This document shows positions 2,595-41,174 of a stretch of 64,000 nucleotides of DNA, piece by piece. Origin of the DNA: Mariniphaga sp. (GTDB lineage Bacteria > Bacteroidota > Bacteroidia > Bacteroidales > Prolixibacteraceae); assembly GCA_024636975.1 (NCBI GenBank), contig JAGXGA010000019.1, positions 1 to 64,000 of the forward strand, read 5' to 3'. Position 1 is the stretch's first letter; each line of letters starts with the position of its first letter. The position numbers and the translations under genes are program-made. The notes under the pieces were generated by a model. The model was not told the origin of the DNA. It made no database searches and was given only the letters and a program-made list of their open reading frames with translations.

Positions 2595-2793
2595 TCAGAA
2601 AAATTACAGTATTTATATTCCCTTTTTAAACAGGCCAGCAAAAGTATAAAAATTTAACTCTGCGTCTTTCAAGAGTTGAAAACTCACCTGCATTACACAA
2701 GCCGGAAATCAGGTTTCCAGTTTTTAAAGCCGAACTGAAAAACCTCTTACTGGCAACTTTTCGCAGAATCATTGTAGGGACCTTCTCCGGACT

Positions 2794-2903
2794 AAACTCA
2801 ATGTAAACTCAATATAAACTCAGTATTAACTCAATGTAAACTCAATTATAATTGAATTTATATTGAGTTATGGTTGAGTTAATGCTGAATTGATACTGAA
2901 TTT
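2794..2903. repeat. 110-bp palindrome made of ten 11-bp units, copy 1
   Basis: Five AAACTCA-type units begin at 2794, 2805, 2816, 2827 and 2838. Five inverted TGA(G/A)TT-type units begin at 2853, 2864, 2875, 2886 and 2897. All steps are exactly 11 bases. The symmetry centre is the perfect 12-mer CAATTATAATTG at 2843-2854. Arms are imperfect complements. A near-identical architecture with the same centre lies at 34470-34579. It could form a long hairpin in RNA or a cruciform in DNA, or present helically phased protein sites. I do not recognise a named family. Confidence 0.85.
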
Positions 2904-2960
2904 GATTAGGAGTATGTATGTATTATGAAAGCACCTTTTTATCAGTATGGTTTTCAAAAT

Positions 2961-3311
2961 GTCGGACTTGGAAAGTCCGACTCCCCGTGGCTTCTGCTCC
3001 GATAGGCACCGTAGCCATTTTGTACTGCAAACCCACGGGACTTTGAGTTTCCAACTCAAAGATTTTTGATACTGTTTAAAAGGTAAAATTTCCGGTACAG
3101 AAACTTCCCTCTTGTTCCGAAAAATGTCGGACTTGCAAAGTCCGACTCCCGGTAGCCACTGCACCGACAGACACCGTAGCCATTTTGTACTGTAGGCCCA
3201 CGGGACTTTGAGTTTCCAACTCAAAGATTTTTGATACTATTTAAAAGGTAAAATTTCTGTAACAGATACTTCGCTCTTGTTCCCGAAAATGTCGGACTTG
3301 GAAAGTCCGAC
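2961..3311. repeat. REP/BIME-like tandem array, 165-bp period
   Basis: Hairpin A has stem GTCGGACT/AGTCCGAC with a 5-base loop and occurs at 2961-2981, 3126-3146 and 3291-3311. Hairpin B has stem CTTTGAGT/ACTCAAAG and occurs at 3041-3061 and 3206-3226. Read on opposite strands, both have loop TGGAA (TGCAA in the second A copy). The spacing A-A and B-B is exactly 165 bases, and the sequence between hairpins is also conserved. Opposed small hairpins in alternation resemble REP/BIME units mobilised by REP-associated tyrosine transposases; no such gene is in the window. The array sits at the 3' end of the GH3 gene and may also shield or terminate its transcript. Confidence 0.8.
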
Positions 3312-3360
3312 TCCCGGGGGGATCTGTTCCTTTTTGGCAATTTTACACTTCCTGATCAGC

Positions 3361-20471: not shown

Positions 20472-21265
20472 AGTTCATTTATTATTTCTGTTATACTTAA
20501 TACTTATTCATTATTGAAATACATGTTTCACAATGTTTTATATATTCTATTTTGAATTTAATTATCAAAGAACACATTACCACCAGTTCATGCCAGAAAT
20601 GCAGTTCCTTTCACTAAATTCTGTTTAATGAAACAACAGACGCTCAAAAACAAACCGTTTGATTTTGGAATTTAGATTGTGATTTTGCTGATAAGGGTTA
20701 AAATCATGATTAAGTTACAACAATATTTACACTTTAGAAAATCCTGAAGAGGTTTTTGAAAATAATTCTAAACTAATACGTTAAACAAAAAAATACTGGA
20801 AAACTTTACTGAAAAAATAACTGCAAATAGACCAAACAGAATACACAGATTTTTCAACTACCATTTGAAAGGTACAGGGTGATAATTCTTAGAAAATAGA
20901 AAGGATTGTTCTTGTCAGATCAATATAGTCAGGCACAGGGCTATAAATATTCATACCCTGATCCTGTCTTTCCAATGTCAAATTCGGGGTTAATTCGTAG
21001 TATGTTCGTAGTATCTTCGTATGAAATTCGCAATTTTATGAATTTAATACAAAGATGATACATAGAAATATATGCAGTAATACCTTCCTGTTATTTACAT
21101 ACAATACATTTTTCTATGGCCAGAAATAGGATTAAATTAAACAACCTAAAGAGGTCAGGTGATTTTATTTCCCGGGATGATTGCCCGAAAAGATAATGAA
21201 TGCAGCATGAATAAACAGATTTTGCTCCCGAAACTGGTAGTATCATCAGCAACCGGAAGGTGATG
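20472..21265. other. Gene-free region upstream of susC
   Basis: About 790 bases, AT-rich, without a credible gene. It must contain the susC promoter, but no clean TAnnTTTG/TTTG pair was found on the minus strand. Visible structures are a short palindrome CAAACCGTTTG at 20651-20661, which might be an operator, and an 11-bp periodic array at 20983-21064, listed separately. No nearby regulator gene (HTCS, SusR, LacI, ECF sigma) is present. Confidence 0.6.
20983..21064. repeat. Degenerate 11-bp periodic array, partly palindromic
   Basis: Five TTCG-starting units begin at 20983, 20994, 21005, 21016 and 21027, each 11 bases apart; the best copies read TTCGTAGTATG and TTCGTAGTATC. Right of the centre (about 21034.5), segments at 21036-21042 and 21047-21053 are imperfect complements of units five and four; further units decay. 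The period and the five-unit arm match the two 110-bp palindromes elsewhere in the window, but the unit sequence differs. It lies between the 3' end of the 930-residue hypothetical gene and susC. Confidence 0.6.
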
Positions 21266-24241: not shown

Positions 24242-27200
24242 TTAGAGTTGTTTTGCTACTTCCACTTCATGGAAAGCTTCCACATGGTCGCCCACTTTCA
24301 TATCATTGAAATTATCAATGTTCAATCCACATTCATAACCATTCTTCACCTCTTTGGCATCTTCCTTGAAACGTTTGAGTGATCCCAGATTACCGGTATA
24401 AATTACAATGCCATCGCGAATCACCCTGATCTTAGAATTACGGCTTATTTTTCCGTCACGTACTATGCAACCGGCAACCGTACCTACTTTTGTCACCTTG
24501 AAAACTTCAAGCACCTCGGCGGTACCAGTTATTTCTTCCTTGATATCGGGTGACAACATGCCTTCCATGGCCGCCCTGATTTCGTTGATGGCGTCGTATA
24601 TAATTGAATAGAGGCGAATATCTATTTGTTCTTTTTCAGCCAGTTTCCTTGCACTGAGTGAAGGCCTTACCTGGAAACCTATTACAATGGCTTCGGAAGC
24701 TGCAGCCAGCAGGATATCGGATTCTGAAATCTGACCAACTGCCTTATGTTTGATGTTCACCTGGATTTCTTCGGTAGAAAGCTTGATCAATGAATCGGCA
24801 AGTGCTTCAATAGATCCATCTACGTCACCTTTTACAATAAGATTAAGTTCCTGGAAGTTTCCAATGGCAATACGCCGGCCGATTTCATCGAGTGTAATAT
24901 GTTTCTGTGTACGTAATCCCTGCTCACGTGCAAGCTGTTCACGTTTGTTTGCAATGTTCCGGGCCTCACGTTCGTTCTCCATTACGTGGAATTTATCACC
25001 TGCCTGCGGGGCACCATCCATACCGAGGATAATAGCCGGTTCAGCTGGCCCTGCGGTATCGATCCGCTGGTTTCGCTCGTTGAACATCGCTTTCACGTGA
25101 CCAAAATACTGGCCAGCCAATACAACGTCACCGGCTTTTAAAGTACCGGTTTCCACAAGTACTGTGGCAACATATCCACGGCCCCTGTCGAGGGTCGATT
25201 CAATGATAGTACCTTTGGCTCTCCTGTTAGGATTAGCTTTTAAATCAAGGAGTTCGGCTTCAAGCAACACCTTTTCGAGCAAATCATCCACTCCGGTGCC
25301 AAATTTTGCCGAAATATCCTGAGACTGGTATTTTCCTCCCCAGTCTTCAACCAGGTAATTCATATTTGCCAGCTCTTCCTTAACCCGTTCAACATTGGAA
25401 TTTGGCTTATCCACCTTATTAATGGCAAACACTATAGGCACACCGGCAGCGGCTGCATGGTTGATAGCTTCTACCGTTTGAGGCATTACATTATCGTCAG
25501 CAGCCACAATAATAATGGCAATATCAGTAACCTGGGCTCCACGGGCACGCATGGCTGTAAAAGCCTCATGACCGGGTGTATCAAGAAATGTAATTTCTCG
25601 TCCGTCCTCCAGGCTCACGTGGTAGGCTCCGATATGCTGGGTAATACCGCCTGCTTCACCTGCAATTACGTTGGTGCTTCTTATATAGTCGAGCAACGAT
25701 GTTTTTCCATGATCAACGTGACCCATTACAGTCACAATCGGAGAACGCGGAAGTAAATCGGTGTCGGCATCTTCATCCGATTCAAAGGAATCCTGTAAAT
25801 CGGCGCTCACAAATTCCACTTTGAAGCCAAATTCATCGGCAACCACCGAAAGTGTTTCTGCATCAAGCCGCTGGTTAATTGAAACAAACAAACCAAGGCT
25901 CATGCAAGTAGAAATCACCTGGTTCACGTTCACATCCATCATGGTTGCAAGTTCGCTTACCGAAACAAATTCGGTAACTTTCAGAAATTTCTTGTCTTCT
26001 ATGTTTTTCTCCTGATCGGCATGCTTCCGCTCACTGATGGCGGCTCTTTTATCGCGCCTGTGTTTCGACCCTTTTGATTTTCCTTTTGAAGTAAGTCTGG
26101 CAAGGGTGTCTTTTATCTGCTTTTGAACTTCACCTTCATCCACCTCTTTTTTCAAAAGAACCTTTTTCTTTCTGCCTCCGGCTTTTTGAAGTTTTGGCTC
26201 TAATTTAGTACGCTCCTGCGGTTTATCTTCAAGCTTAATTCTTCCGGTTTCCTTGATTCTTTTACGCCGTTTCTTTTGCAGTGCTTCTTCGGCAATATCT
26301 TTTTGTTTCCTGAGTTTTTTATCCGGTAAGTCGATCCTGCCAACTACAGTCGGGCCATTTAATTTGCCGGCTCTGGCTTTAATAACGTCTTCTTCTTTTC
26401 TTACAGTTTCTTCTCCCTGGGCTTTTTGTACCGGCTGTTCAGAAGTGGTTTCTTCCGCTTTAACAATACCCGGCTTCGGGCGTCTCCGGTCTCTGCGTTC
26501 TTTCTCCCGTTCTTTTCTTGTTTTTTTTGCAGGACGCGTCTTCTGGTTTAAGGCATCAAGATCAATTCGCCCAATTACTTTCAATTCTTCCACTTTAGGC
26601 ACTCCGGTTTCTATGGTTTTCTCTTTTGGTTCTTCTGCATGCTTTTCTTCTGCTTCTTCGGCAGGTTTTTCGGGCTGAACTTCTTCTTTTTCTATTTCTT
26701 TTTCTACTTCTTTTTCAGTAGGTATTTCCGCTTCGGCAGGCTTTTCTGCTTCTTTAGGAGTTTCCTCCACCGCAGGCTCCTGCGGCGGTTTTTCCTCTAC
26801 AGGTTTAGTCTCTTTCTTCGCAGGCTTGTTAACACTGTCAAGATCAACCTTACCTACAATTTTTAACCTGTCTTCGTGTTTCGGTTTTTCAACCGGTGCC
26901 TCTTCCCGTTCTTTCTTTTTAACTACAGGGGGTGCAGTTTTTTTGGGAGCAGCTTTGGGGGCTTCTTCCTCATATTCATCCTCTTCATCAAATTCTTCTT
27001 CAGGTTTGTCATCAATAGTAATAACCTCCTGCTTGGGACGATGGCTTTTAAGAATGATCTTTTCTGATTCCTTCTTCAGGTTCAGATCGATTTTATACTC
27101 TTTTTCAAGAAGGGCTAAAGCTTCCTCAGAGACTTTCGTGTTTGGGTTTGAGTCGTAGTCATACCCTTTTTTGTGCAAGAAGTCCACGATGGTGTGAATT

Positions 27201-27256
27201 CCTACATTGAACTCTCTCGCAAGTTTACTAAGCCTAATTGTCTTGCCTAATACCAT
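24242..27256 (-). CDS. infB: Translation initiation factor IF-2
   Basis: The 1004-residue GTPase delivers initiator fMet-tRNA to the 30S subunit. An IF2_N helical domain (about 1-60) is followed by a very long Glu/Lys/Pro-rich linker (about 75-420), a second IF2_N-like module (about 430-485), then the GTPase domain with G1 '[15 protein letters not shown]', '[10 protein letters not shown]', G3 'DTPGHEAF' and G4 'NKVDKPN', and C-terminal beta-barrel and fMet-tRNA-binding domains. Length is within the range for Bacteroidetes IF-2. It is the last gene of rimP-nusA-infB and is followed by a strong terminator hairpin. Confidence 0.98.
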
Positions 27257-27348
27257 ATTCTAATTTTTCCTTTCCTATCTCCAATATTTTAAGTCTCTGC
27301 AAGTTTAGCCAAAAGCTATAACAGTAGCTTAGTTTTGGTTATTTTTTT

Positions 27349-28584
27349 TTATTCGAATTCAGATTTCAAGATTTTCAGCACATCATCAATGGTTTCATCT
27401 TCTAAATCTGTACGTTTAATCAGCTCTTCGCGGGGAATGTTCAATACATTTTTAGCTGTATCGCAACCAATTCCTTTAAGTGTATCAATGATCCATCCTT
27501 CGATTTCGTCAGAAAATTCATCAAGGTTAACATCATCATCATCTTGCTGTGTCTCGCGATATACGTCTATTTCATAACCAGTAAGCTGACTTGCCAGCCT
27601 GATGTTTAATCCACCCTTCCCAATGGCAAGCGACACCTCTTCAGGTTTAAGGTAAACATCAGCTTTTTTATATTCTTCGTTTAATTTAATGTTATTAATT
27701 TTCGCAGGATTTAATGCACGCTTAATAAATAATTGAGTATTTGCTGAATAATTAATAACATCGATGTTCTCATTTCTTAATTCACGCACAATGCCATGAA
27801 TACGCGATCCTTTCATTCCCACACAAGCGCCAACTGGGTCAATTCGTTCGTCATATGATTCCACAGCCACTTTAGCACGTTCGCCGGGAACCCGCACAAT
27901 TTTTTTGATTGTAATCAGGCCATCGAAGATTTCAGGAATCTCAAGTTCAAATAAACGCTCAAGAAATACAGGCGCAGTGCGGGATAAAATAATTAGCGGG
28001 TTGTTATTTCTGAGCTCTACCTTATATACTATGGCACGAACTGTATCGCCTTTCCGAAAGTAGTCAGAAGGAATTTGTTCTGTTTTTGGGAGGATAAGTT
28101 CGTTTCCTTCATCGTCCAGAATAAGAATTTCCTTTTTCCAAACCTGGTAAACCTCTCCGGTAACAATGTCTCCTATTTTATCCTTGTACTTTCCGTAGAT
28201 ATGGTCTTTTTCAAGTTCCATAATCTTACTGGCAAGGTTCTGGCGCAGGTTCAAAATGGCACGACGGCCAAAATCCAGCAGTTTAACCTCATCGGTAACA
28301 TCCTCTCCCACCTCATAATCGTCGTCGATCTTTTTTGCTTCCGAAAGGGATATCTGGAGGTTAGGGTCATCTAATTCATCATCTTCCACCACTTCCCGGT
28401 TTCTCCATATTTCAAAGTCACCTTTATCGATGTTAATAATGACATCAAAATTTTCATCTGTGCCAAATTGTTTTATCAGCACACTGCGAAAAACATCCTC
28501 AAGGACACTCATCATTGTCACGCGATCAATGTTTTTCAATTCCTTGAATTCAGCAAAAGTATCTATAAGGCTAATATTTTCCAT
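27349..28584 (-). CDS. nusA: Transcription termination/antitermination factor NusA
   Basis: The 411-residue protein has the NusA N-terminal RNA-polymerase-binding domain (about 1-130), an S1 domain (about 133-200, 'GDIVTGEVYQVWKKEILI'), and two KH domains (about 205-345; 'RIDPVGACVGMKGSRI' and 'SLAIGKGGLNIRLASQLTG' are the GxxG-type motifs). A short acidic helical end follows, without the acidic repeats of enterobacterial NusA. It controls pausing, termination and antitermination. It sits 9 bases after rimP and 92 bases before infB, the conserved bacterial order. Confidence 0.97.
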   Translation of the reverse strand: MENISLIDTFAEFKELKNIDRVTMMSVLEDVFRSVLIKQFGTDENFDVIINIDKGDFEIWRNREVVEDDELDDPNLQISLSEAKKIDDDYEVGEDVTDEVKLLDFGRRAILNLRQNLASKIMELEKDHIYGKYKDKIGDIVTGEVYQVWKKEILILDDEGNELILPKTEQIPSDYFRKGDTVRAIVYKVELRNNNPLIILSRTAPVFLERLFELEIPEIFDGLITIKKIVRVPGERAKVAVESYDERIDPVGACVGMKGSRIHGIVRELRNENIDVINYSANTQLFIKRALNPAKINNIKLNEEYKKADVYLKPEEVSLAIGKGGLNIRLASQLTGYEIDVYRETQQDDDDVNLDEFSDEIEGWIIDTLKGIGCDTAKNVLNIPREELIKRTDLEDETIDDVLKILKSEFE

Positions 28585-28593
28585 TGTTATTCT

Positions 28594-29058
28594 CTATTTA
28601 AATAAAACTACAACTTTTGCGCTTTTTATATCGCTGTATTCAATTTTATACTCTTTAACTACCAACTGTTTTTTCTTATGACCTTCCACCTTTTCACGGG
28701 ATGAGGTTTCAAGTAAAATATCATCAGGTGTTGCATCCTTAAGAATGCCTGCAAGTTTCCTGCCATCTTCGGTATCAACTTCCAGCTGGCGGCCAATATT
28801 TTTAATATACTGATCTTTTACCTTTAAAGGTTCCGACAACCCCGGAGAAGACACCTGAAGCTCAAAATCTTCTTCCTCACGATCAAGGCTATGCTCAATG
28901 TGCCTGCTTATTGCCACACAATGGTCGATGGTAATACCGTCAAAACTTTCAATGGAAACCCTGATAAAATTAGATGCACTCACCTGCACCTCAACAAGGA
29001 ACATCCCCTTTTCAAGTTTCTCATTAACCAGTTGCTCTATTTTCGCCTTATCTACCAT
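28594..29058 (-). CDS. rimP: Ribosome maturation factor RimP
   Basis: RimP assists 30S subunit assembly in the cytoplasm. The product is about 154 residues with the N-terminal alpha/beta domain ('GITIDHCVAISRHIEHSLDRE' and 'FELQVSSPGLSEPLK', the family signature) and a C-terminal SH3-like barrel. I chose the ATG at 29058 (MVDKAKIEQL) because family members begin this way; an in-frame ATG at 29073 would add five residues (MLRLI). It is the first gene of rimP-nusA-infB and has a good promoter upstream. Confidence 0.93.
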   Translation of the reverse strand: MVDKAKIEQLVNEKLEKGMFLVEVQVSASNFIRVSIESFDGITIDHCVAISRHIEHSLDREEEDFELQVSSPGLSEPLKVKDQYIKNIGRQLEVDTEDGRKLAGILKDATPDDILLETSSREKVEGHKKKQLVVKEYKIEYSDIKSAKVVVLFK

Positions 29059-29121
29059 TATTAGCCTTAACAAAATAGGAGACCTTAGGTCCCCTAATTC
29101 AGGTTTTTATAAAAATCAGCG

Positions 29122-29152
29122 CAAAAATAGTAAATTCCTGATAAAATACAAA
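29122..29152 (-). promoter_or_regulatory. Promoter of rimP-nusA-infB
   Basis: On the minus strand, -33 TTTG (29149-29152) and -7 TATTTTTG (29122-29129) are separated by 19 bases, matching the primary sigma-factor consensus of Bacteroidota. Transcription would begin near 29115, giving a leader of about 55 bases before rimP. Confidence 0.6.
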
Positions 29153-29231
29153 TATTTAAAGGTATGATAAACGCCTTAAACCGAATTAATTAAACTTTTG
29201 TATTTTTATCATCGAAAGTAAAAGAAAACAA

Positions 29232-30488
29232 GTGACACAATATTATCTGAACAAGAAAAAAATTATTAACGATCCTGTATTTGGGTTTATCACGCTGCAA
29301 TCGGAGATGGTGTTTGATCTTCTGGAACACCCTTACATGCAGCGGTTAAGGCGTATAAAGCAACTCGGGCTATCCTTTCTGGTGTATCCCGGGGCCAACC
29401 ATTCACGTTTTGAACATGCCCTGGGCGCCAGCCACTTAATGCGGCAGGCAATTGATGTGCTACGACTTAAGGGCCATGAAATTACTGAAGAAGAAGCAGA
29501 TGCAGTTACTCTTGCTATCCTGCTTCATGATATAGGCCATGCTCCCTTCTCCCATGTACTTGAAAATACGATGGTTGAGATTTCCCATGAAAAAATTTCG
29601 CTGATGATGATGAATGAACTCAACCGGCAGTTTGAAGGCAAACTCAGCCTTGCCATCGACATCTTCAGAAACAGGTATAAAAAACAGTTCCTACACCAGC
29701 TGGTTGCCAGTCAGCTCGACATGGACCGGCTGGATTACCTGAGCCGCGACAGTTTTTTTACCGGGGTGGCTGAAGGCATAGTAGGCATCGACCGTATTAT
29801 AAAGATGCTCACAGTTTGGAACGATCAGCTTGCTGTGGATTATAAAGGAATATACTCCATCGAGAAGTTTCTGATAGCTCGCAGGCTCATGTACTGGCAG
29901 GTTTATTTTCACAAAACAGTTGTTTCAGCAGAGTTTCTCCTTATTAATGTCCTGAAAAGGGCAAAAGAACTTTTAACTTCAGGAAATAATGTTTTTGCAA
30001 CCCCTACCCTGCTTATATTCTTAAAAAATGATTTCACAACAGTTGATTTTTCGAAAAATATTAAAATTGGAAACCAAAACATCCTCGACTGGTATGCTTT
30101 ACTTGACGACAACGATATTCTAACTTCAATTAAAGAATGGCAGATGCATCCCGATCCAGTGCTGTCAAAATTAGCGTTCCGCCTGATAAACCGGAAGTTG
30201 TTCCGGATTGAACTTGAAGATGCACCTGTGTCGGAAAAATGGAAAGAAAAAAAACTAAAGCAGATCACAAACAAAATTACAGGCGATGCTGATCTGTCAC
30301 ATTATTTCTTAATTACAGGTGAAATTACCAACAACGCATACAATCAGAACACCGAGAACATAAAGATTCTTTTTAAAAACGGAAAGGTTAAAGATATGGG
30401 CAAAGCATCTGATATTAACCTCTCTGTATTAACCAAAACGGTTCGTAAATATTTTGCCTGTTATCCAAAAGAATTGGACATTAATTAG
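29232..30488 (+). CDS. HD-domain phosphohydrolase
   Basis: The 418-residue protein starts at a GTG (29232; MTQYYLNKKKIINDP). It carries the HD metal-binding set: His in 'SRFEHALGASHL', His-Asp in 'LLHDIGHAPFSH', and a later Asp in 'QLDMDRLDYLSRD'. This pattern matches the SAMHD1/dGTPase-like branch of the HD superfamily, which hydrolyses nucleotides or related phosphate compounds in the cytoplasm. The exact substrate is not known. It is divergent from rimP and lies 36 bases before lpxD, a neighbour arrangement I have the impression is common in Bacteroidetes, although lpxD has its own promoter within the gap. Confidence 0.9.
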   Translation: MTQYYLNKKKIINDPVFGFITLQSEMVFDLLEHPYMQRLRRIKQLGLSFLVYPGANHSRFEHALGASHLMRQAIDVLRLKGHEITEEEADAVTLAILLHDIGHAPFSHVLENTMVEISHEKISLMMMNELNRQFEGKLSLAIDIFRNRYKKQFLHQLVASQLDMDRLDYLSRDSFFTGVAEGIVGIDRIIKMLTVWNDQLAVDYKGIYSIEKFLIARRLMYWQVYFHKTVVSAEFLLINVLKRAKELLTSGNNVFATPTLLIFLKNDFTTVDFSKNIKIGNQNILDWYALLDDNDILTSIKEWQMHPDPVLSKLAFRLINRKLFRIELEDAPVSEKWKEKKLKQITNKITGDADLSHYFLITGEITNNAYNQNTENIKILFKNGKVKDMGKASDINLSVLTKTVRKYFACYPKELDIN

Positions 30489-30504
30489 TTTAAACCTATA
30501 TTTG
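30474..30504 (+). promoter_or_regulatory. Promoter of lpxD-lpxC/fabZ-lpxA
   Basis: -33 TTGG (30474-30477) and -7 TATATTTG (30497-30504) are 19 bases apart, as in the Bacteroidota consensus. The -33 box lies inside the end of the HD gene. The start codon at 30525 is only about 20 bases downstream, so the leader is very short. Confidence 0.55.
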
Positions 30505-30524
30505 CATCGCAAAAAAAATGATGA

Positions 30525-31580
30525 ATGGAATTTAAAGCTACAGACATCGCTGCTTATCTAAATGGGGAAATAGTTGGAGACAGCAATGTCAAGGTATCAG
30601 GCATATCAAAAATTGAGGAAGGCGAACCCGGAACCCTCTCTTTTCTTGCCAATCCAAAATATGAAAGTTACATATACACGACCCGTGCATCAATTGTTTT
30701 GGTGAATAATTCATTCCACCCCAGGGCGGAAATAAAAACCACCCTTATAAAGGTTAAAGATGCCTATCAGTCATTTGCTTCACTTCTCGATTTATATGTT
30801 CAGGCTAAAAAAGACAGTCGCAAGGGAATTGAAAATCCGACACAAATTCATGAAACGGCTAAAATTGGAGAAGATGTTTATATTGGAGCATTTACCAGCA
30901 TAGGGCGCAACGCCACGGTAGGCAACGAATCAAAAATCTTCCCGCAGGTATTTTTAGGCGACAATGTATCGGTCGGTGAAAACTGCATCATCTATGCCGG
31001 GGTGCGGATATACGACGATTGCATAATTGGCAACAACTGCATACTGCATTCCGGGGCGGTAGTTGGGTCCGATGGCTTTGGCTTTGCACCACAGGAAGAT
31101 GGAACCTACAAAAAGATTCCGCAACTTGGAAATGTGATACTGGAAGATGATGTGGAAATAGGCGCCAATACGGCCATCGACTGCGGTACATTTGGTTCAA
31201 CCATTATTCGCAAGGGAGCCAAAATTGACAACCTTGTACAAATTGCCCATAACTGTGAAATCGGTGAAAATACAGTAATTGCAGGTCAGACTGGTTTGGC
31301 TGGTTCCAGCAAAGTGGGTAAGAACTGCAGGTTTGCCGGTCAGGTTGGCCTGGCCGGTCACCTTACAATTGGCAACAACGTTCAGATTGGCGCTCAGTCG
31401 GGAGTCAGCAAATCAATAAAAGACAATGAAATTGTTCTATCTTCACCTGCTGTTAATTATAAGGACGCTATAAAAACATATACCATTATCCGGAACCTGC
31501 CAAAACTTCGGGAGGAAGTCATACAACTTCAAAAAGATGTTAGATCCTTAAAAAAGGCTGATTCTGCCAATTCTAAGTAA
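30525..31580 (+). CDS. lpxD: UDP-3-O-(3-hydroxyacyl)glucosamine N-acyltransferase
   Basis: LpxD performs the third step of lipid A synthesis, adding a hydroxyacyl chain to the amino group of UDP-3-O-acylglucosamine. The 351-residue protein has an N-terminal uridine-binding domain (about 1-100), a left-handed beta-helix of hexapeptide repeats (about 105-320), and a C-terminal helix. The catalytic His is in '[18 protein letters not shown]'. It is the first gene of a three-gene lipid A operon, 12 bases before lpxC/fabZ. Confidence 0.97.
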
Positions 31581-31592
31581 ATTACTGAAAGC

Positions 31593-32993
31593 ATGGTAAA
31601 ACAAAAGACTTTAGCTAAATCTTTTAAGATTCAGGGGAAAGGCCTGCATACAGGAGTAAATGTAACAATGAATTTCCTGCCTGCCCCGGAAAATTATGGG
31701 TTTAAATTTAAACGGGTAGATCTGGAGGGATCACCGATTATAAATGCCGATGTGGATTTGGTAATCGATACCTCCCGCGGTACATTACTCGAATACAACG
31801 GAGCACGCATAGGTACAATTGAGCATGCACTGGCAGCACTTACAGGCATGGATCTGGATAATGTGCTGATAGAAGTGGATAACGAAGAAGCGCCTATCAT
31901 GGATGGCAGCTCGCGATATTTCGTGGAAGCCATTGAAAAGGCAGGTATTGTGGAACAGGAAGCCGACCGTGAGTACTTTGAAATCGGGGAAAAAATTGAA
32001 ATCTTTGATGAAGCATCCGGATCGCAAATCATTGCTCTGCCCGATAATGACTACCGCATTAATGTGCTCATATCCTTTAAATCGAGAGTATTGAACAACC
32101 AGTTTGCCACTCTTGAATCAATAAGTGAATTCAAAGATGAAATTGCAAACTGCCGCACGTTTGTTTTTCTACATGAACTGGAGTACCTTCTAAAAAATAA
32201 TCTTATCAAGGGCGGGGAATTAAATAATGCCATTGTAATAATCGACAAGGAGGTCGGACAGGATGAACTTGACCGCCTGGCCGATTTGTTTCACCACGAC
32301 CGGGTTGAAGTTAAGCCCCAGGGCATTCTGAATAATCTGGAATTGCATTTCGATAATGAATGCGCCCGACATAAACTGCTGGACGTGATTGGTGACCTGG
32401 CATTATGTGGAAAGCGCATAAAAGGCAGGGTAATTGCCTATAAACCGGGCCATCGACCCAATACTTTATTTGCCCAGGCCTTAAAGGAGGCCTATAAAAA
32501 ATCACTGAAAGAAGTGCCTGAATACGACCCTGATGTGCAACCGGTTTTTGATACAAATCAGATAAAGGAACTACTGCCTCACCGGTATCCGTTTTTACTT
32601 GTCGATAAAATCATATCCAAAACCGACACAGAAATAGTTGGCATAAAAAATGTTACCCAAAATGAGCCATTCTTCCAGGGGCATTTTCCCGATGAGCCCG
32701 TTATGCCAGGGGTACTGCTCATAGAAGCCATGGCTCAAACAGGAGGAATACTTGTGCTTAGTTCACTTGAAGGGAAATACTCAACCTATTTCATACGTAT
32801 TGATAATGTCAAATTCAGAAAAAAAGTAGTGCCCGGCGACACACTTATATTTAAACTCACTTTAACAGCACCTATCCGCCGTGGAATGGCTATCATGAAA
32901 GGGGTAACCTACGTTGGCAGCCGTGTAGTGGCAGAGGGAGAATTTATGGCCCAATTAGTTAAACAACGGGTAAACAGCCCAGAATCTGTGTAA
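31593..32993 (+). CDS. lpxC-fabZ: Fused LpxC deacetylase / FabZ dehydratase
   Basis: A 466-residue bifunctional protein. Residues about 1-300 are LpxC, the zinc-dependent deacetylase that commits UDP-3-O-acyl-GlcNAc to lipid A; ligand motifs are '[11 protein letters not shown]' and '[10 protein letters not shown]', and the catalytic His is in 'KPGHRPN'. Residues about 315-466 are FabZ, the 3-hydroxyacyl-ACP dehydratase, with '[11 protein letters not shown]' and active-site His and Glu in '[20 protein letters not shown]'. This fusion is typical of Bacteroidetes. It links the balance of lipid A and phospholipid acyl supply. lpxA follows after 5 bases. Confidence 0.97.
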
Positions 32994-32998
32994 ATATT

Positions 32999-33781
32999 AT
33001 GAAACAACCACTAGCTTATGTACATCCCGATGCAAAAGTTGCAGACAATGTAGTTATTGAACCATTTGTATCAATCGACAGGGATGTTGTTATCGGTGAA
33101 GGAACCCGCATCGGCTCAAGTGTTACCATTCTATCAGGAACACGAATCGGCAAAAATTGCAACATTTTTCCAGGTGCAGTTATTGGTGCCGCTCCCCAGG
33201 ATTTGAAATACAAAGGGGAATACACAACTGTGGAAATCGGCGATAACAATACCATTCGCGAATATGTTACAATTAATAAGGGAACTGCATCGAAAGGAAA
33301 AACTGTGGTGGGCAACAACAACCTGTTAATGGCTTATGTGCACATTGCCCATGATTGTTATGTGGGTAATTATGTGATTTTAGGCAACAACACCCAGCTA
33401 GCCGGCGAGGTCATCATCGACGACTGGGCCATCATTTCCGGTATGACCGGCATACATCAGTTCTGTCGCATTGGCTCACATGTTATGATTGCCGGCGGAT
33501 CACTTGTCAGAAAAGATGTTCCTCCTTTCATTAAAGCAGGCCGTGAACCGCTTTCCTATGTTGGCATCAATTCAATTGGATTGCGTCGCCGTAACTTTTC
33601 AAACGAAAAAATCAGGGAAGTCCAGGATATCTACAGGTACATTTATCAAAAAGGGTTAAATACAGCCCAGGCGGTGGAAATTATTGAAGCCGAAATGCCT
33701 GCCTCCCAGGAACGGGATGAAGTACTTCTGTTCGTAAAAGATTCAAAAAGAGGTATAATCAGAGGTTATTTACCCGATTAA
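32999..33781 (+). CDS. lpxA: UDP-N-acetylglucosamine O-acyltransferase
   Basis: LpxA catalyses the first step of lipid A synthesis, moving a hydroxyacyl chain from ACP to UDP-GlcNAc. The 260-residue protein has the left-handed hexapeptide helix (about 1-190; catalytic His in 'MAYVHIAHDCYVGN', and the 'GMTGIHQFCRIG' segment) and a C-terminal helical domain ('NSIGLRRRNFSNEKI'). Length is normal. It ends the lipid A operon and is followed by a hairpin at 33804-33850. Confidence 0.97.
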   Translation: MKQPLAYVHPDAKVADNVVIEPFVSIDRDVVIGEGTRIGSSVTILSGTRIGKNCNIFPGAVIGAAPQDLKYKGEYTTVEIGDNNTIREYVTINKGTASKGKTVVGNNNLLMAYVHIAHDCYVGNYVILGNNTQLAGEVIIDDWAIISGMTGIHQFCRIGSHVMIAGGSLVRKDVPPFIKAGREPLSYVGINSIGLRRRNFSNEKIREVQDIYRYIYQKGLNTAQAVEIIEAEMPASQERDEVLLFVKDSKRGIIRGYLPD

Positions 33782-33803
33782 GACCCTTTCGTAGCATGTA
33801 TGC

Positions 33804-33850
33804 CATTACCGGATTTTAAAGAACTTTTTTCACTTTATAATCCGGTAATG
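33804..33850 (+). terminator. Stem-loop after lpxA
   Basis: Arms CATTACCGGATT and AATCCGGTAATG flank an A/T-rich loop, with extra pairing TAAAG/CTTTA. The hairpin starts 23 bases after the lpxA stop and is followed by GGGTTTTC, so it lacks a long T tract. Termination is likely but the T stretch is weak. Confidence 0.55.
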
Positions 33851-34118
33851 GGTTTTCAGTGAGTTAAATCATCTCACTCTTTAGAAAATTATTCAGTTAA
33901 CTAATTGCTCCCAACTCTAGATAACCATCAGATAAAAAAAGGGAAGCTTAAGTTTAATATCCATATACTTAGCTTTCAGTTCTCCGTATTTTCAATCAAC
34001 CCAGCAACAAGTCGATTAAACCAGGCGGAGTCATTTTCAATACCTGTCACCTTTACCCTTTCCAACCCGGCATTTTTACCAAACAAAAACACCATCACTT
34101 TCAAATTTTTCTCCGGTT

Positions 34119-34287
34119 AACCTTATTTACAGTTCCTAAACCTTAGTAACCGCTTAGCAACTCCACATCACCCTAACCTTATTCCCTTATTTCCTGATTG
34201 ACTGCAACACCGCCCGAATAAGGCAATAAGATTAAGAAGGCAGGGGCATAAGTTCAGTTACTAAGGTTTGTCGAAAAAAATAAGGTT
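34119..34287. repeat. MITE-like 169-bp imperfect inverted repeat
   Basis: The outer arms pair AACCTTATTT (34119-34128) with AAATAAGGTT (34278-34287), and the perfect 12-mer AACCTTAGTAAC (34139-34150) with GTTACTAAGGTT (34257-34268). Inside, TAACCTTATTCCCTTATT (from 34174) is nearly complementary to AATAAGGCAATAAGATTA (34217-34234). The whole could fold as one long interrupted hairpin. No coding frame is inside. It may be a non-autonomous mobile element or a structured RNA; a target-site duplication was not identified. Confidence 0.6.
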
Positions 34288-34469
34288 TTTCTGTTCTTAT
34301 AACTCAAGTATCGTTGCTGAAATTAAAATTACCATTAAAATATTAAACTGATACTGCAATTAGCTCCTCCCGGACCTGTTTTGGTCTGCAAAATCAATGA
34401 TCATGCTGTTATCCTCAGTACTCTTTTATTCAGTAACGGATAAGATATTCTTCATACCTTCCCCTGATT

Positions 34470-34579
34470 AAACTCAATGCAAACTCAATGTAAACTCAAT
34501 ATTAACTCAGTGTAAATTCAATTATAATTGAGTTTACATTGAGTTATAACTGAATTAATATTGAGTTTAAGTTGAATTT
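34470..34579. repeat. 110-bp palindrome made of ten 11-bp units, copy 2
   Basis: Left units (AAACTCA, TAACTCA, AAATTCA) begin at 34470, 34481, 34492, 34503 and 34514. Right units begin at 34529, 34540, 34551, 34562 and 34573. Every step is 11 bases, and the 12-base centre CAATTATAATTG is at 34519-34530, identical to copy 1 at 2794-2903. The two copies have the same length and unit count but differ at many positions. It lies between the convergent lpxA and thiL ends. Confidence 0.85.
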
Positions 34580-34795
34580 AATAAGGACCTGGATATAGCA
34601 GAGTACACCGTGGCTTACCGGACAAGGACAGATTAAACCGATGAAAAGCGTAGCTAGTTATATAGTTTTCAATAAGTTGACATTGCACTAATTATAAGGA
34701 TTATTTGTTTTGACTACCGTGCCATTAATCCGGCCGGAGAATAGCGGCGCAATCTTCTTCCTCTGCCTTTGCCTGTTCCTAAAATACTGCACCTT

Positions 34796-35836
34796 CTAAT
34801 CTTCCAGGTGCTTCCAGCCCTGGGCTTGCAACGGGATTGCGGAACCGCCTGTTGCAATTAAATTTGTTCCTTCCGATGCTTCGGTTATTTCGCCGATTAC
34901 GGTGAAGTCAGGATCATTTTTTATTTTTTCAGCATCTTCAGGAGATAACGTGAAAAGCAGTTCATAATCTTCACCGCCGTTTAGCGCTGCAACAAGAGGA
35001 TTGATGTTCAGTTCTCCGGCCATTTGTTTGGTTTGGTTGTCCATAGGCACCTTTTCTTCAAAAAGCCTGCACCCCACCTTTGAATTTTTGCACAAATGCA
35101 TAATTTCTGAAGAAAGGCCATCGGATATATCGATCATTGAGGTTGGTTTGACCTGTAGTTTTTCAAAAGCATTCACCACATCCAAACGTGCTTCAGGTTT
35201 CAACTGTCTTTGGAGGATGTAATCGTAACCTTCCAACTGAGGCTGCATTTCCGGATTCACTTTAAACACTTCGTTTTCACGTTCCAGAAGTTGCAATCCC
35301 GCATATGCACCACCCAGGTCTCCTGAAACACATAATACATCTCCGGGACGGGCACCACTGCGGTAAACCAGGTCCTTTTCGTCAGCTTCACCCAATGCAC
35401 TGATACTGATAGTCAGGCCGGTGAGAGAGCTTGTGGTATCGCCTCCTATCAGATCAACTCCGTAGTTTTCGCAGGCCAGGTATATTCCCGAGTACAGCTC
35501 TTCAACTGCCTCAACCGAAAACTTACCTGATAAGGCAAGGTTAACCGTTATTTGGCGGGGCAGGGCATTCATGGCAAATATATCGGATAGATTTACAATC
35601 ACTGCCTTATATCCCAGATGCTTAAGCGGCACATACATCAGGTTAAAATGTATACCTTCGGTAAGCAGATCAGTAGAGAAAACCACACATTTATTACCGT
35701 AATCCATCACAGCTGCATCATCACCCACGCCTTTCAACGTGCTTTTGTTTTTTAACTGAATATGTTGTGTCAACCTCTCTATCAGCCCAAATTCGCCTAT
35801 TTCTGCTATCCTTGTTTGTTTTCTTTCGTTATTCAT
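34796..35836 (-). CDS. thiL: Thiamine-monophosphate kinase
   Basis: ThiL phosphorylates thiamine monophosphate to the active cofactor thiamine diphosphate in the cytoplasm. The 346-residue protein has the PurM-like ATP-binding fold: 'LKGVGDDAAVMDYG' near residue 38-50, metal-binding Asp in 'NLSDIFAMNALPRQ' and 'GGDTTSS', and 'MIDISDGLSSEIMHL' plus 'GGEDYELLFTL' in the C-terminal half. Length is typical. It stands alone and diverges from sufB; a -7 candidate TAATTTTG lies on the minus strand at 35985-35992. Confidence 0.96.
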   Translation of the reverse strand: MNNERKQTRIAEIGEFGLIERLTQHIQLKNKSTLKGVGDDAAVMDYGNKCVVFSTDLLTEGIHFNLMYVPLKHLGYKAVIVNLSDIFAMNALPRQITVNLALSGKFSVEAVEELYSGIYLACENYGVDLIGGDTTSSLTGLTISISALGEADEKDLVYRSGARPGDVLCVSGDLGGAYAGLQLLERENEVFKVNPEMQPQLEGYDYILQRQLKPEARLDVVNAFEKLQVKPTSMIDISDGLSSEIMHLCKNSKVGCRLFEEKVPMDNQTKQMAGELNINPLVAALNGGEDYELLFTLSPEDAEKIKNDPDFTVIGEITEASEGTNLIATGGSAIPLQAQGWKHLED

Positions 35837-35984
35837 TTCCCCGCAATTATAATTTTTTTAAATCAGTCTCATGCATTCACCCTGGCTATACAAAAAACAT
35901 CTCCTGTTCCAAGGCATACAGAATACCTGGTTTATTTCTTTGTTAATAAAAGACAATTAAGTATTCAATTATTCTTTACAAGAA

Positions 35985-36012
35985 CAAAATTACCTATAGT
36001 TTTATATCTTTG
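35985..36012. promoter_or_regulatory. Overlapping divergent promoter elements, thiL and sufB
   Basis: On the plus strand TATCTTTG (36005-36012) matches the -7 consensus for sufB, 58 bases before its start. On the minus strand TAATTTTG (35985-35992) matches for thiL. Neither has a convincing -33 TTTG, so both are provisional. Confidence 0.4.
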
Positions 36013-36069
36013 CAATTTATTTGTAAACAGTCTCAATTAACTGATTGTTGTTAACAAAAACGTATTGAA

Positions 36070-37515
36070 ATGACAGATCAAGATAAAATATTATCGGAAG
36101 TAACCCAGGGAGAGTACAAATATGGGTTTTTCTCTGATATAGAAACAGATATAATAGACAGGGGATTAAGCGAAGATGTAATCAGGATTATCTCGGAGAA
36201 AAAGAATGAGCCTGATTTCATGTTGGAATTCCGTTTGAATGCCTACCGGAAATGGCTTAAGATGAAGATGCCTAACTGGGCTTACCTGAAGGTTCCACCA
36301 ATTGATTTTCAGGACATAAGCTATTATGCGGCACCACGAAAAAAGCCGCAATATGAAAGCCTTGACGAGGTTGATCCGGAATTGCTTGAAACGTTTAACA
36401 AACTGGGAATTCCGTTGGAAGAACAGAAGCACCTGGCAGGAGTGGCCGTGGATGCAGTACTTGACAGTGTATCGGTAAAAACTACATTCAGGGAAGTATT
36501 GGCCGAACAAGGTATTATTTTCTGTTCGTTCAGTGATGCCCTACAGAATCATCCTGATTTGGTGCGCAAGTACCTTGGGCAGTCAGTTCCGGTTGCCGAC
36601 AATTTTTTTGCGGCGCTGAATTCGGCAGTTTTCAGTGATGGCTCGTTCTGCTACATTCCAAAAGGAGTGCGCTGTCCTATGGAGCTTTCCACTTACTTCA
36701 GGATTAATTCTGCAAATACAGGTCAGTTTGAGCGTACCCTTATTATTGCCGATGACGATAGTTACGTCAGTTACCTTGAAGGGTGTACCGCGCCTATGCG
36801 CGATGAAAACCAGCTCCATGCAGCTGTGGTTGAAATTATTGCCCTCGACCGTGCCGAAGTAAAATATTCTACCGTTCAGAACTGGTATCCAGGCGACAAA
36901 AACGGGAAAGGTGGTATTTATAATTTCGTAACCAAACGGGGTGTTTGCCGTGGTGTTTCTTCAAAAATCAGCTGGACTCAGGTGGAAACCGGTTCAGCAA
37001 TTACATGGAAATACCCAAGCTGTATATTACTGGGAGACAATTCGGTTGGTGAATTTAACTCAGTTGCCGTTACCAATAACCATCAGCAGGCGGATACGGG
37101 TTCAAAAATGATCCATATCGGGAAAAATACTAAAAGCACTATTATATCGAAAGGTATTTCAGCCGGAAAAAGTAACAATTCATACCGCGGCCTTGTGAAA
37201 GTAATGCCGGGAGCCACGAATTCAAGGAATTTCTCGCAGTGCGATTCGCTGTTGCTGAACGATACATGCGGAGCCCACACTTTTCCATATATTGAAGTAG
37301 GAAATAAATCGTCAATTGTAGAACATGAGGCGACTACTTCAAAAATAGGTGAAGACCAGATATTCTATTGCAACCAGCGTGGAATAGATACAGAAAAAGC
37401 CATAGGCATGATAGTAAACGGCTATGCAAAAGAGGTGCTGAACAAACTGCCGATGGAATTTGCAGTGGAAGCACAAAAGCTGTTGCAAATCAGTCTTGAA
37501 GGCAGTGTTGGGTAA
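36070..37515 (+). CDS. sufB: Fe-S cluster assembly scaffold protein SufB
   Basis: SufB is the scaffold subunit of the SufBC2D complex, on which new Fe-S clusters are built. The 481-residue protein shows the conserved '[26 protein letters not shown]' region split by family hallmarks ('[21 protein letters not shown]', 'QCDSLLLND', '[18 protein letters not shown]'), which form the right-handed beta-helix core. Length is typical of SufB. It begins the suf operon, 78 bases before sufC. Confidence 0.97.
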
Positions 37516-37593
37516 AGTACCAAACGACAAATTATTTGATGTTAAATATGAGCACTACAGAATAACAAGGTGCTCAAAATTAGAATACTAAAA

Positions 37594-38349
37594 ATGTTAT
37601 CAATAAAAGACTTATATGTTTCCATAGATGGGAACGAGATCCTTAAAGGTATTAACCTGGAAGTAAAGCCGGGAGAAATTCATGCTATTATGGGGCCCAA
37701 CGGCTCAGGAAAAAGTACGCTTGCAAATGTTTTGGCGGGTAAAGAAGAATTTGAAGTAACCCAGGGAGAAGTAACCTATATGGGAGAAGACCTGCTTGAA
37801 ATGGCTCCTGAAGACCGTGCTACAAGTGGTTTGTTTCTTAGCTTCCAGTATCCGGTGGAAATTCCTGGTGTACCTATGGTAAATTTTTTGAAGACCGCAG
37901 TAAACCAGCACAGAATAGCAAGAGGCGAGAAAGAGCTTACAGCTGGTGAATTTCTTAAGCTTATGCGCGAGAAAAAAGAGATGATTGATATGGATACACA
38001 GTTAACCAACCGTTCGGTAAATGAAGGGTTCTCAGGCGGTGAAAAGAAGAAAAATGAAATCTTCCAGATGGCATTGCTTGAACCGAAACTTGCTATTCTG
38101 GATGAAACCGATTCAGGCCTGGATATTGATGCGCTTAAGACAGTGGCACATGGTGTGAATGCCTTAAAAACACCAAATAATGCCACTATTATTATTACCC
38201 ATTACCAGAGGCTGCTGGATTACATTATTCCCGATCATGTGCATGTTTTATACAAAGGCAGGATGGTAAAATCGGGAGGACGTGAACTGGCCCTTGAACT
38301 GGAAGAAAAAGGGTACGATTGGGTTAAACAAGAAAATGCATTGCAATAA
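37594..38349 (+). CDS. sufC: Fe-S assembly ATPase SufC
   Basis: SufC is the ABC-type ATPase that drives the SufBCD scaffold. I chose the ATG at 37594 (MLSIKDLYVSIDG), since a GTG eight codons upstream adds a non-conserved extension. The 251-residue product has Walker A 'GPNGSGKST', the signature 'FSGGEKKKNE' and Walker B 'LAILDETDSGLD', plus the H-loop 'IITHYQ'. Its stop overlaps the sufD start by one base (ATAATGA), so the two are translationally coupled. Confidence 0.96.
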   Translation: MLSIKDLYVSIDGNEILKGINLEVKPGEIHAIMGPNGSGKSTLANVLAGKEEFEVTQGEVTYMGEDLLEMAPEDRATSGLFLSFQYPVEIPGVPMVNFLKTAVNQHRIARGEKELTAGEFLKLMREKKEMIDMDTQLTNRSVNEGFSGGEKKKNEIFQMALLEPKLAILDETDSGLDIDALKTVAHGVNALKTPNNATIIITHYQRLLDYIIPDHVHVLYKGRMVKSGGRELALELEEKGYDWVKQENALQ

Positions 38350-39716
38350 TGAGTGTTATAACAGAAAAAGCAGATTTATCACTAAAATATGCCGCACATT
38401 ATAACGAAGTAAAGGAAAGCCTTCGTGAAGGCTCACCCCAAATAATGAATGATTTGCGGGGGACCGCCCTTCAGGATTTTATCAGGCAGGGTATTCCCAC
38501 ACGTAAAGTGGAAAACTATAAATACACCAACCTGCAACCTTCCTTTACTCCTGAATATGAGTTCATTCATCAACGCATAACGACAGAAGTTGATCTGAAT
38601 GCAATTTTCAGGTGTGATGTGCCTCAGCTTGATACCCACCTGGCTTTCGTATCGAACGGATGGTTCTATGAGAACAACCGTCAGTTGAGTGAGCTGCCAG
38701 AAGGAGTCCTTCTTGGGAGCCTCGAGAAGATGGCAACAGAACAACCCGGGTTGCTTGCTAAGTTTGCAACACTTGCAAGCACTGCAGATGATCCGATGGT
38801 TGCATTGAATGCTCTTTATGCCAAAGACGGCTATTTTTTGTATGTTCCCCGTAACGCCAGGGTTGAAAAACCGATTCAGCTCATTAACCTGCTTCAGTCG
38901 GAAAATGATACTTTTGTTACCCAACGGAATTTTATTCACATAGAAGAAGGTGCCCACGTAAAGCTTATATTATGTGACCACACCATGAACCTTAACAAAT
39001 ATCTGAGCAATTCGGTAACAGAAATTTTTGTCGGACAAAATGCTTCCCTTGAATATTATGCACTGCAAAATCATCATAACAATTCAGCCAGTATAAATTC
39101 AGTATTTATTCACCAGGAACGGGATTCAACGGCCAATACGCTGTATTCAACATTGCATGGGGGATTGATCAGAAATAATCTGAAGTTCATTCTTGATGGC
39201 GAAAATGCCGAAGCCAATTTATATGGGATGGCTTTTATTGACCGACAACAGCATGTTGACAATTTCACCCAGGTAATCCATGCAAAACCGCATTGTCAGA
39301 GCAACCAGATATATAAAAACGTTCTGGACGATGAATCAACAGGAGCGTTTTCAGGCAGAATTCATGTTGTGAGGGATGCACAAAAAACAAATGCCTTTCA
39401 GCGTAACAACAACCTGTTACTTACCGACAAGGCCCTAATGCAAACAAAACCACAGCTAATCATTGATGCCGATGATGTTAAATGTAGCCATGGTGCCACA
39501 ATCGGACAAATAGATGAAGATGCTTTGTTCTATTTGCGTGCCAGGGGGATTGAAGAAAAAATGGCCCGGCTTATGATGATGAATGCATTTACCCATGAAG
39601 TTATTCAGCAGGTGAAAGTTGAACCCTTGCGTGACCGCATTGATGAACTTGTTGATAAACGGTTGCGGGGCGAAATGGCAAGATGCCATGATTGTGCCTA
39701 TAACTGTGAAAGTTAA
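38349..39716 (+). CDS. sufD: Fe-S assembly protein SufD
   Basis: SufD pairs with SufB in the scaffold complex and helps iron entry. The 455-residue protein has a helical N-terminal part, a beta-helix core, and the C-terminal signature 'DVKCSHGATIGQIDEDALFYLRARG' (given here in part: 'CSHGATIGQIDEDALFYL'). Length is typical. It is coupled to sufC by a start/stop overlap and followed by a strong terminator, which separates it from sufS. Confidence 0.95.
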   Translation: MSVITEKADLSLKYAAHYNEVKESLREGSPQIMNDLRGTALQDFIRQGIPTRKVENYKYTNLQPSFTPEYEFIHQRITTEVDLNAIFRCDVPQLDTHLAFVSNGWFYENNRQLSELPEGVLLGSLEKMATEQPGLLAKFATLASTADDPMVALNALYAKDGYFLYVPRNARVEKPIQLINLLQSENDTFVTQRNFIHIEEGAHVKLILCDHTMNLNKYLSNSVTEIFVGQNASLEYYALQNHHNNSASINSVFIHQERDSTANTLYSTLHGGLIRNNLKFILDGENAEANLYGMAFIDRQQHVDNFTQVIHAKPHCQSNQIYKNVLDDESTGAFSGRIHVVRDAQKTNAFQRNNNLLLTDKALMQTKPQLIIDADDVKCSHGATIGQIDEDALFYLRARGIEEKMARLMMMNAFTHEVIQQVKVEPLRDRIDELVDKRLRGEMARCHDCAYNCES

Positions 39717-39740
39717 AGAAAAATCTAAATGATATATCAG

Positions 39741-39784
39741 CACCCGCAATTTTTAAAACTTTTAAATTTGCGGGTGTTTTTTTT
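39741..39784 (+). terminator. Factor-independent terminator after sufD
   Basis: Stem CACCCGCAA (from 39741) pairs with TTGCGGGTG (ending 39776), and an eight-T run follows directly. It starts 25 bases after the sufD stop. Because sufS lies downstream on the same strand, the terminator implies separate or attenuated expression of sufS. Confidence 0.8.
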
Positions 39785-39902
39785 GCTGTGCAGCTGTAAA
39801 TTTTCTCCACAACCGGTTTCAAATGGTTCTTAAGCAATGAAAAAAAATTTATGCAGGTTCAAAATGCTTTTTTACCTTTAACGTTTGTTTAATAGAACAA
39901 CA

Positions 39903-41123: not shown

Positions 41124-41174
41124 ATCAATTTGCTCGTAAGTTTAAAAATTCCATTGTTCCAATTAAATCGAAAC

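Follow-up and report, generated by a model that had tools for sequence, protein, structure and literature searches.

What is the 110-bp block of mirrored 11-bp units that lies near the start of this DNA, and why does the same structure recur further along it? In the window (the whole stretch of DNA analysed, 64,000 nucleotides), positions 2794-2903 hold five 11-bp units, a centre CAATTATAATTG and five inverted units, and a second array at 34470-34579 likewise has 5+5 units at 11-bp steps around CAATTATAATTG. The initial annotation had placed 5+5 units at exact 11-bp steps around a 12-base centre at both positions, with the copies about 31.7 kb apart. Both claims are confirmed, and the distance turns out to be close to the typical array spacing across the genome. 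A joint score, in which mirrored positions and period-11 matches are summed, reaches 109 for the array at 2794 and 112 for that at 34470; the background maximum over 60 first-order Markov resamples of the whole window is 72. The palindromes are imperfect, with 42/60 and 47/60 mirrored positions, respectively.

The left arm of the first array (2794..2848, forward strand) consists of five units of the form WAAYTCARTRT reading toward the centre; its right arm (2849..2903, reverse strand), with five inverted units, is the more divergent of the two. The second array is built in the same way, with five 11-bp units in the left arm (34470..34524, forward strand) and five inverted units in the right arm (34525..34579, reverse strand). 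Beyond the units lie an outer stretch, TACCTTCKCCTGACT, on one side and its looser inverse on the other, which makes the element longer than 110 bp. With these outer stretches, matches to a sequence model (R1) cover 2775..2922 (forward strand, 121.3 bits) and 34450..34595 (forward strand, 117 bits). The four genes flanking the two arrays carry the Pfam families EamA, GH3, hexapeptide acyltransferase and AIRS. Separately, a tandem 165-bp repeat at 2956-3317 contains two short palindromes, GTCGGACTTGGAAAGTCCGAC and CTTTGAGTTTCCAACTCAAAG; the former has 39 sites that merge into 27 places in the genome, and at 4 of these an 11-bp array lies no more than 350 bp away.

The repeat class supposed by the initial annotation is real. 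When the genome and its relatives were searched for copies, at least 67 strong ones (R1, at least 73 bits) were found on 30 contigs of the genome from which the window comes, with 150 of 3986 candidates scored; this family is called F1. The R1 model was built from 34 copies, 6 of 40 early copies being left out of the alignment (A1), and blastn alone gives at least 40 places in the same genome (40 of 86 candidates scored). Five weak R1 places (25.9-46.1 bits; C20:102039, C12:200372, C42:57015, C50:130985 and C14:86641) were kept out of F1. Four of them coincide with places of the families F2 or F3 described below and are counted there; C12:200372 is uncounted. Judged by a loose unit rule, the 67 copies divide into 45 with 5+5 units, 16 with 5+4 and 6 with other counts. 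Their outer ends are terminal inverted repeats, TACCTTCKCCTGACT on the better arm and a weaker inverse on the other. Weaker conservation reaches about 37 bases beyond the units on the better arm, and positions -15, -26 and -37 have a T/G preference in common, a hint of further, decayed 11-bp steps.

The F1 unit has a nearly fixed core. Among 513 units (centre unit excluded), position 5 is T in 510, position 6 is C in 509 and position 7 is A in 511, where units were counted only at 8 or more of 11 loose positions, a rule that favours the core somewhat. Other positions vary: position 4 is C in 384 and T in 123, position 8 is A in 350 and G in 147, and position 10 is G in 254 and A in 195. This mixture of core and degenerate positions would fit sequence readout under selection. 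Differences among 48 compared F1 copies have a minimum of 7 and a median of 16 per 110 positions, with no near-identical pair among them.

Two further families have the architecture of F1 with other units. F2 (unit WAATTCGTAGT, AATTCGTAGTA; 37 places) first appeared when a family-blind finder was run on parts of contigs C38 and C57 that lack F1. Its pattern has 89 matches, against 1 in a reversed control; these merge into the 37 places, each of which requires three perfect TTCG steps in one arm. Matches on both strands occur at 13 of the 37, and the symmetry of the remaining 24 is partly shown. F3 (unit AAANTCRCATY, AAAGTCACATC), found in further gap stretches, adds 10 places beyond those of F2; its pattern search (up to 3 mismatches) gave 63 matches against 3 in the control. 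Four of the 10 places have matches on both strands, and those on C13 and C19 consist solely of three-mismatch matches. WAANTCR is common to the units of F1, F2 and F3. Six places combine F2 on one strand with F3 on the opposite strand (C8:22.9, C14:86.7, C48:360, C50:23.2, C55:4.4 and C67:69.0 kb).

A family-blind scan of 854 kb at periods 7-18 found 12 arrays, all with period 11; period 12 gave a single place, and periods 7-10 and 13-18 gave nothing. The scanned DNA was mostly picked for F1 absence, and its 12 arrays are all in the family lists. The ten strongest palindromes in it (at least 38/60) are all 11-bp arrays of the F1-F3 class. Arrays in the scanned stretches have a joint score of at least 96 and everything else at most 81, with one exception: the array at 20974..21060 of the window (forward strand, units AATTCGTAGTA), a decayed F2 array whose left arm is clear and whose right arm is mostly lost by eye. 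It scores 77, inside the range of the top background scores (up to 81). Its position between the two F1 arrays of the window suggests that old nodes are replaced by new ones. The single place at period 12 is a palindromic stretch at about 62.4 kb of C14 (L200), inside a 1251-aa open frame; a partial match to Y1_Tnp lies in the same frame, about 70 bases upstream.

The initial annotation held that the architecture, not the sequence, is selected. This is half right: the architecture is common to the different units of F1, F2, F3 and two related genomes (G061 and G062, below), but the core T-C-A is nearly invariant within F1.

Regular spacing is the strongest feature of the arrays, and it was not visible to the earlier reader. 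Mapped places of all families number 114 (67 F1, 37 F2 and 10 F3) and define 72 gaps with a median of 34.7 kb and a coefficient of variation of 0.43. The genome thus contains more than 100 such blocks, many shown to be palindromic, commonly 25,000-42,000 letters apart. Seventy gaps, on contigs of known length (C13 and C58, with 2 gaps, left out), were compared with a uniform null. Gaps of 25-42 kb, an interval chosen after viewing the gaps, number 43 of 70 against 14.0 expected (sd 3.4); 1 of 70 is shorter than 18 kb against 26.9 (sd 3.5). For the coefficient of variation, the observed value is 0.43 and the null value 0.90. In 10,000 uniform draws, no value as extreme arose for any of these three measures. 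Spacing is clearest on contig C50, with arrays at 23, 58, 92, 131, 159, 189, 227 and 258 kb.

Exclusion operates within and between families. F1 alone has 37 gaps with a minimum of 18.4 kb, so none falls below 18 kb (11.0 expected). Across families, 1 of 33 F2/F3 places lies less than 18 kb from an F1 array against 15.1 expected, and this sole exception is the decayed F2 array at 20974. F1, F2 and F3 therefore exclude each other about as strongly as they exclude themselves. A control repeat of the same genome (the GTCGGACTT family) behaves differently in a small sample: 4 of its 8 gaps are below 18 kb, one of them inside a 1.2-kb cluster.

The regular spacing has interruptions. Whole or partial scans of seven gaps measuring 60-93 kb revealed no hidden array; none was seen in the scanned parts of C48:70-131, C38:155-225, C14:307-360, C53:20-97 and C43:40-120 kb, nor in C48:258-278 and C33:70-90 kb. 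The end of C38 (225-324 kb) also has no array. It was considered as a possible island and rejected: GC dips in parts, but the six of its proteins that were scanned had 0 PADLOC matches and no Pfam mobile-element family. Folding the gaps at 26-43 kb was uninformative about a fixed period, since the value merely rises with the period tried.

Outside this genome, arrays are patchy. Among 60 genomes searched by blastn, F1 matches occur in 2, namely the genome itself and G053, a member of another family of the same order (26 bases). The R1 model has matches in 8 of 140 genomes of the family, including the genome itself (G000), and in part these matches fall on analogous arrays built from other units. 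G061 and G062 have palindromic 11-bp arrays of this kind. Those of G062, whose sequence is the same as that of Prolixibacteraceae MAG UBA10471, extend up to about 210 bp, with units of the CAATACAAAGT type on the outside and of the ATTACGGGTAC type on the inside. On a 262-kb contig of G061 (C76) there are nine palindromic arrays, whose units look by eye to be of three or more types (L130, L271-L282). Their smallest gap is 10.9 kb (P 0.026) and their coefficient of variation 0.47 (P 0.031), in a test restricted to these nine; a tenth place (202.2 kb), weaker with a score of 82, was set aside along with two direct arrays. By eye, some arrays of one type in G061 have flanks that resemble each other beyond the units. 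The two direct 11-bp arrays at 141.9 and 158.4 kb of the same contig also have like flanks. G063 has one direct array of about 13 copies of TGGTCATTCAA (C2:3843-4019, L131), which begins right after the apparent stop codon of an open frame. The R1 matches in the other four genomes of the family are unremarkable by eye.

Samples of three other genomes are free of arrays: 378 kb of the same-genus G003 (top score 73), 180 kb of the same-genus G002 (one place at 82, not array-like by eye) and 400 kb of G060 (top score 71). The function of the arrays is therefore not conserved in the family.

The initial annotation knew of no named family of this kind, and the wider searches agree. Rfam families have 0 matches to the window or to six loci that carry F1, F2 and F3 arrays, and plasmid and phage collections gave no match at the sensitivity used. 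A strict F1 pattern has 0 matches in genome_contigs and a similar pattern 0 in viral_contigs, collections that, like the plasmid and phage ones, may omit records near this genome. A looser 11-bp pattern matches 22 stretches in genome_contigs and 0 in viral_contigs; 5 of the 22 are palindromic arrays, or parts of them, in one Prolixibacteraceae MAG (UBA10471). The other 17 are direct tandem 11-bp runs in unrelated bacteria and archaea (L160-L162, L164-L169, L172-L176, L178-L180). Searches of the open-access literature found no paper on evenly spaced or intergenic palindromic 11-bp arrays, or on palindromic repeats in Prolixibacteraceae, and among the papers listed by a looser search none names such arrays in its title or opening abstract text.

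Several explanations compete for these arrays. The palindromic symmetry invites the idea of a functional hairpin or cruciform in RNA or single-stranded DNA (a bidirectional terminator, an mRNA stabiliser or an attC-like recombination site), and a single strand of the first array does fold well (z -4.88), as expected because it is a palindrome. Arm pairing is not in excess. In 34 aligned F1 copies, oriented by likeness to the consensus arm (which may bias the result slightly), 80.5% of cells are paired against 81.3% in shuffles. With G-T pairs allowed, the unit region lies below all 300 shuffles on both strands and the outer ends lie at the shuffle mean. Selection on a hairpin was rejected on these pair counts, and the mixed places with F2 and F3 arms point the same way, so the hairpin role named in the initial annotation is unsupported. 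A pattern scan found no terminator-like site within the first array, and the spacing is left unexplained; this explanation is accordingly disfavoured and very unlikely. Operator arrays of a global transcription regulator, distributed over many intergenic regions, would account for the intergenic location and the phased repeated sites, and a sigma-70-like match overlaps the first array, though such matches in the region are no more numerous than in shuffles. The F1 copies examined are intergenic and favour no gene orientation. Among 47 of them (open reading frames of about 90 aa or more), 46 have neighbours on both sides, of which 21 are tandem, 14 convergent and 11 divergent. Overlap with an open reading frame occurs in 2 of the 47, L001 (118 aa) and L024 (about 92 aa), and these frames may not be genes. 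A terminator or promoter role was rejected on this context and on the pattern scan around the first array. Operators would not be expected in convergent, tandem and divergent spaces alike, nor with regular spacing across families, and we consider them very unlikely. Selfish minisatellite growth, in which functionless 11-bp slippage occurs at palindromes, finds parallels in the plain direct 11-bp arrays of unrelated prokaryotes and in the array families of G061 and G062, which look layered from inside to outside. An invariant unit core, mostly 5+5 units, outer ends common to the copies and regular spacing speak against it, and it is the most improbable of the explanations considered.

The main rival is a foldback (MITE-like) mobile element, whose inverted repeats would be tandem sites of a transposase encoded elsewhere and whose target immunity would keep insertions about 20-30 kb from an array of any family. 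Outer inverted ends, the patchy distribution and the like flanks in G061 all speak for it, and so do two loci at which sister genomes lack the array. In the first, a convergent gene pair, 249 bp separate the aligned flanks in G000 and 104 bp in G003. The excess of 145 bp compares with an array match of 144 bp; neither G001 nor G002 was found to have these two genes adjacent to each other. In the second, between an LpxA-like gene and AIRS, the space measures 1014 bp in G000; the aligned ends lie about 10 bp apart in G002 and 80 bp apart in G003. The extra DNA at this locus far exceeds the array. Tn7 offers a precedent, with arrays of TnsB sites (several transposase sites per end) and a target immunity that inhibits a second insertion near an existing copy, according to extracts of two papers (PMC11406308, PMC4321384). 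An extract of the latter also gives double insertions at a distance of 27 kb, and the immunity is therefore incomplete (PMC4321384). Insertion models give a divided answer. When insertion is random and the hard exclusion radius is 13.4, 18 or 20 kb, every run yields fewer 25-42 kb gaps than observed, and the same holds for three soft versions. Hard exclusion of 24 kb matches their number (P 0.31), but places all arrays in just 42 of 300 runs and is unable to yield gaps shorter than 24 kb, of which 8 were observed. If the coefficient of variation is the only measure used, the data are compatible with hard exclusion at 20 kb (P 0.15) and with soft exclusion at 25 kb (P 0.07) or 30 kb (P 0.28). 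Other marks of insertion are missing: at most 4 of 67 copies share a flanking word in the 15 highest-scoring of 32,400 register tests, which gives no sign of target duplication; no near-identical pair exists (minimum 7/110 differences); and a non-exhaustive look saw no longer element with the same ends. A near-invariant core despite divergence between copies fits selection in place better than neutral decay. The mere presence of a RAYT does not explain the arrays: Y1_Tnp occurs in all 9 genomes that were searched for it, whether or not arrays are known from them, including G001, G002, G003 and G060, which have no array in the parts searched. Taken together, a self-avoiding foldback element is a real possibility, with a probability well short of even.

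The explanation that we prefer, though tentatively and at somewhat less than an even chance, is that the arrays are nucleoprotein nodes that mark or anchor the chromosome. Phasing at one helical turn, a conserved core, inverted symmetry free of pairing constraint, exchangeable families and regular spacing together lead us to infer a bound protein and a role tied to chromosome position. A putative sequence-specific DNA-binding protein, or a set of paralogues, would sit on each 11-bp unit. The 11-bp step would put neighbouring molecules on nearly the same face of the helix and favour cooperative binding, and the two runs of about five units would aim at the common centre. Nodes of this kind would recur at 25-42 kb whatever the gene orientation or unit family, because their proposed job is marking or anchoring the chromosome and not gene regulation. 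That job might be loop anchoring, segregation or division control. Among the three roles offered by the initial annotation, a phased protein-binding array fits best and the hairpin is not supported. Mobilisation is a putative role: no target duplication and no near-identical pair is seen, though sister genomes lack the arrays at the two compared loci. Several observations count against chromosome nodes, namely the array-free samples of relatives, the incomplete spacing, the reproduction of the 25-42 kb gap number by hard exclusion of 24 kb, and the G061 flanks, which by eye are alike as for copied elements.

The array class looks like one of two things: an undescribed means by which the chromosome is marked or organised, or the footprint left by an unusual, self-avoiding mobile element. 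The fuller form of the former, an undescribed organising or segregation system whose nodes prefer distances around 33 kb, interchangeable families, replacement of old nodes, and fast-evolving sites within a conserved architecture, is plausible but somewhat more likely wrong than right. If the arrays are nodes, they would offer a tangible way into the question of what sets nucleoid domains of tens of kb. If they are foldback elements, the self-avoidance of a mobile element would be readable from one genome and would work across diverged families. Both readings predict a single protein, or a few paralogues, as the binder of all arrays.

Known systems share individual traits with the arrays. REP/BIME and REPIN elements are short, dispersed, intergenic, palindromic and present in many copies. 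MITEs have the same general traits, as described in an extract of one paper (PMC4133298). Terminal inverted repeats are present here as in MITEs; what differs from MITE, REP and REPIN elements is the absence of target duplication, the 11-bp tandem substructure and the presence of several unit families in one spaced set. The TnsB sites of Tn7 are given as 22 bp in the extracts, whereas the units here are 11 bp and form a palindrome that has no interior, no cargo and no target duplication.

For a dispersed role, the sites of Noc, SlmA and MatP, which serve in nucleoid occlusion and Ter organisation, are the closer analogy. According to extracts of two papers, Noc has about 70 sites and SlmA 24-52 sites across the chromosome, and for sites of this type relative position rather than the targeted gene is thought to matter (PMC4726725, PMC3116907). 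Here the dispersal is seen in the DNA and the binding is putative. In the same extracts, each Noc or SlmA site is one palindrome (for Noc, of 14 bp) and the sites thin out near the terminus, whereas the arrays here have multiple units; regular spacing and interchangeable site families are not among the features that the extracts describe for Noc, SlmA or MatP (PMC4726725, PMC3116907).

For local structure, the nearest analogy is parC of ParMRC plasmids such as R1 and pB171, where ParR binds arrays of 10-11-bp repeats, as stated in an extract of one paper (PMC9426499). No par genes were recognised by Pfam among the four genes flanking the two window arrays. Plasmid R1 parC has ten direct repeats flanking a promoter, going by a reference title listed in that paper (PMC9426499). 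The repeats of plasmid R1 are thus direct, whereas the units described here are inverted about a centre and are found at more than 100 places on a chromosome.
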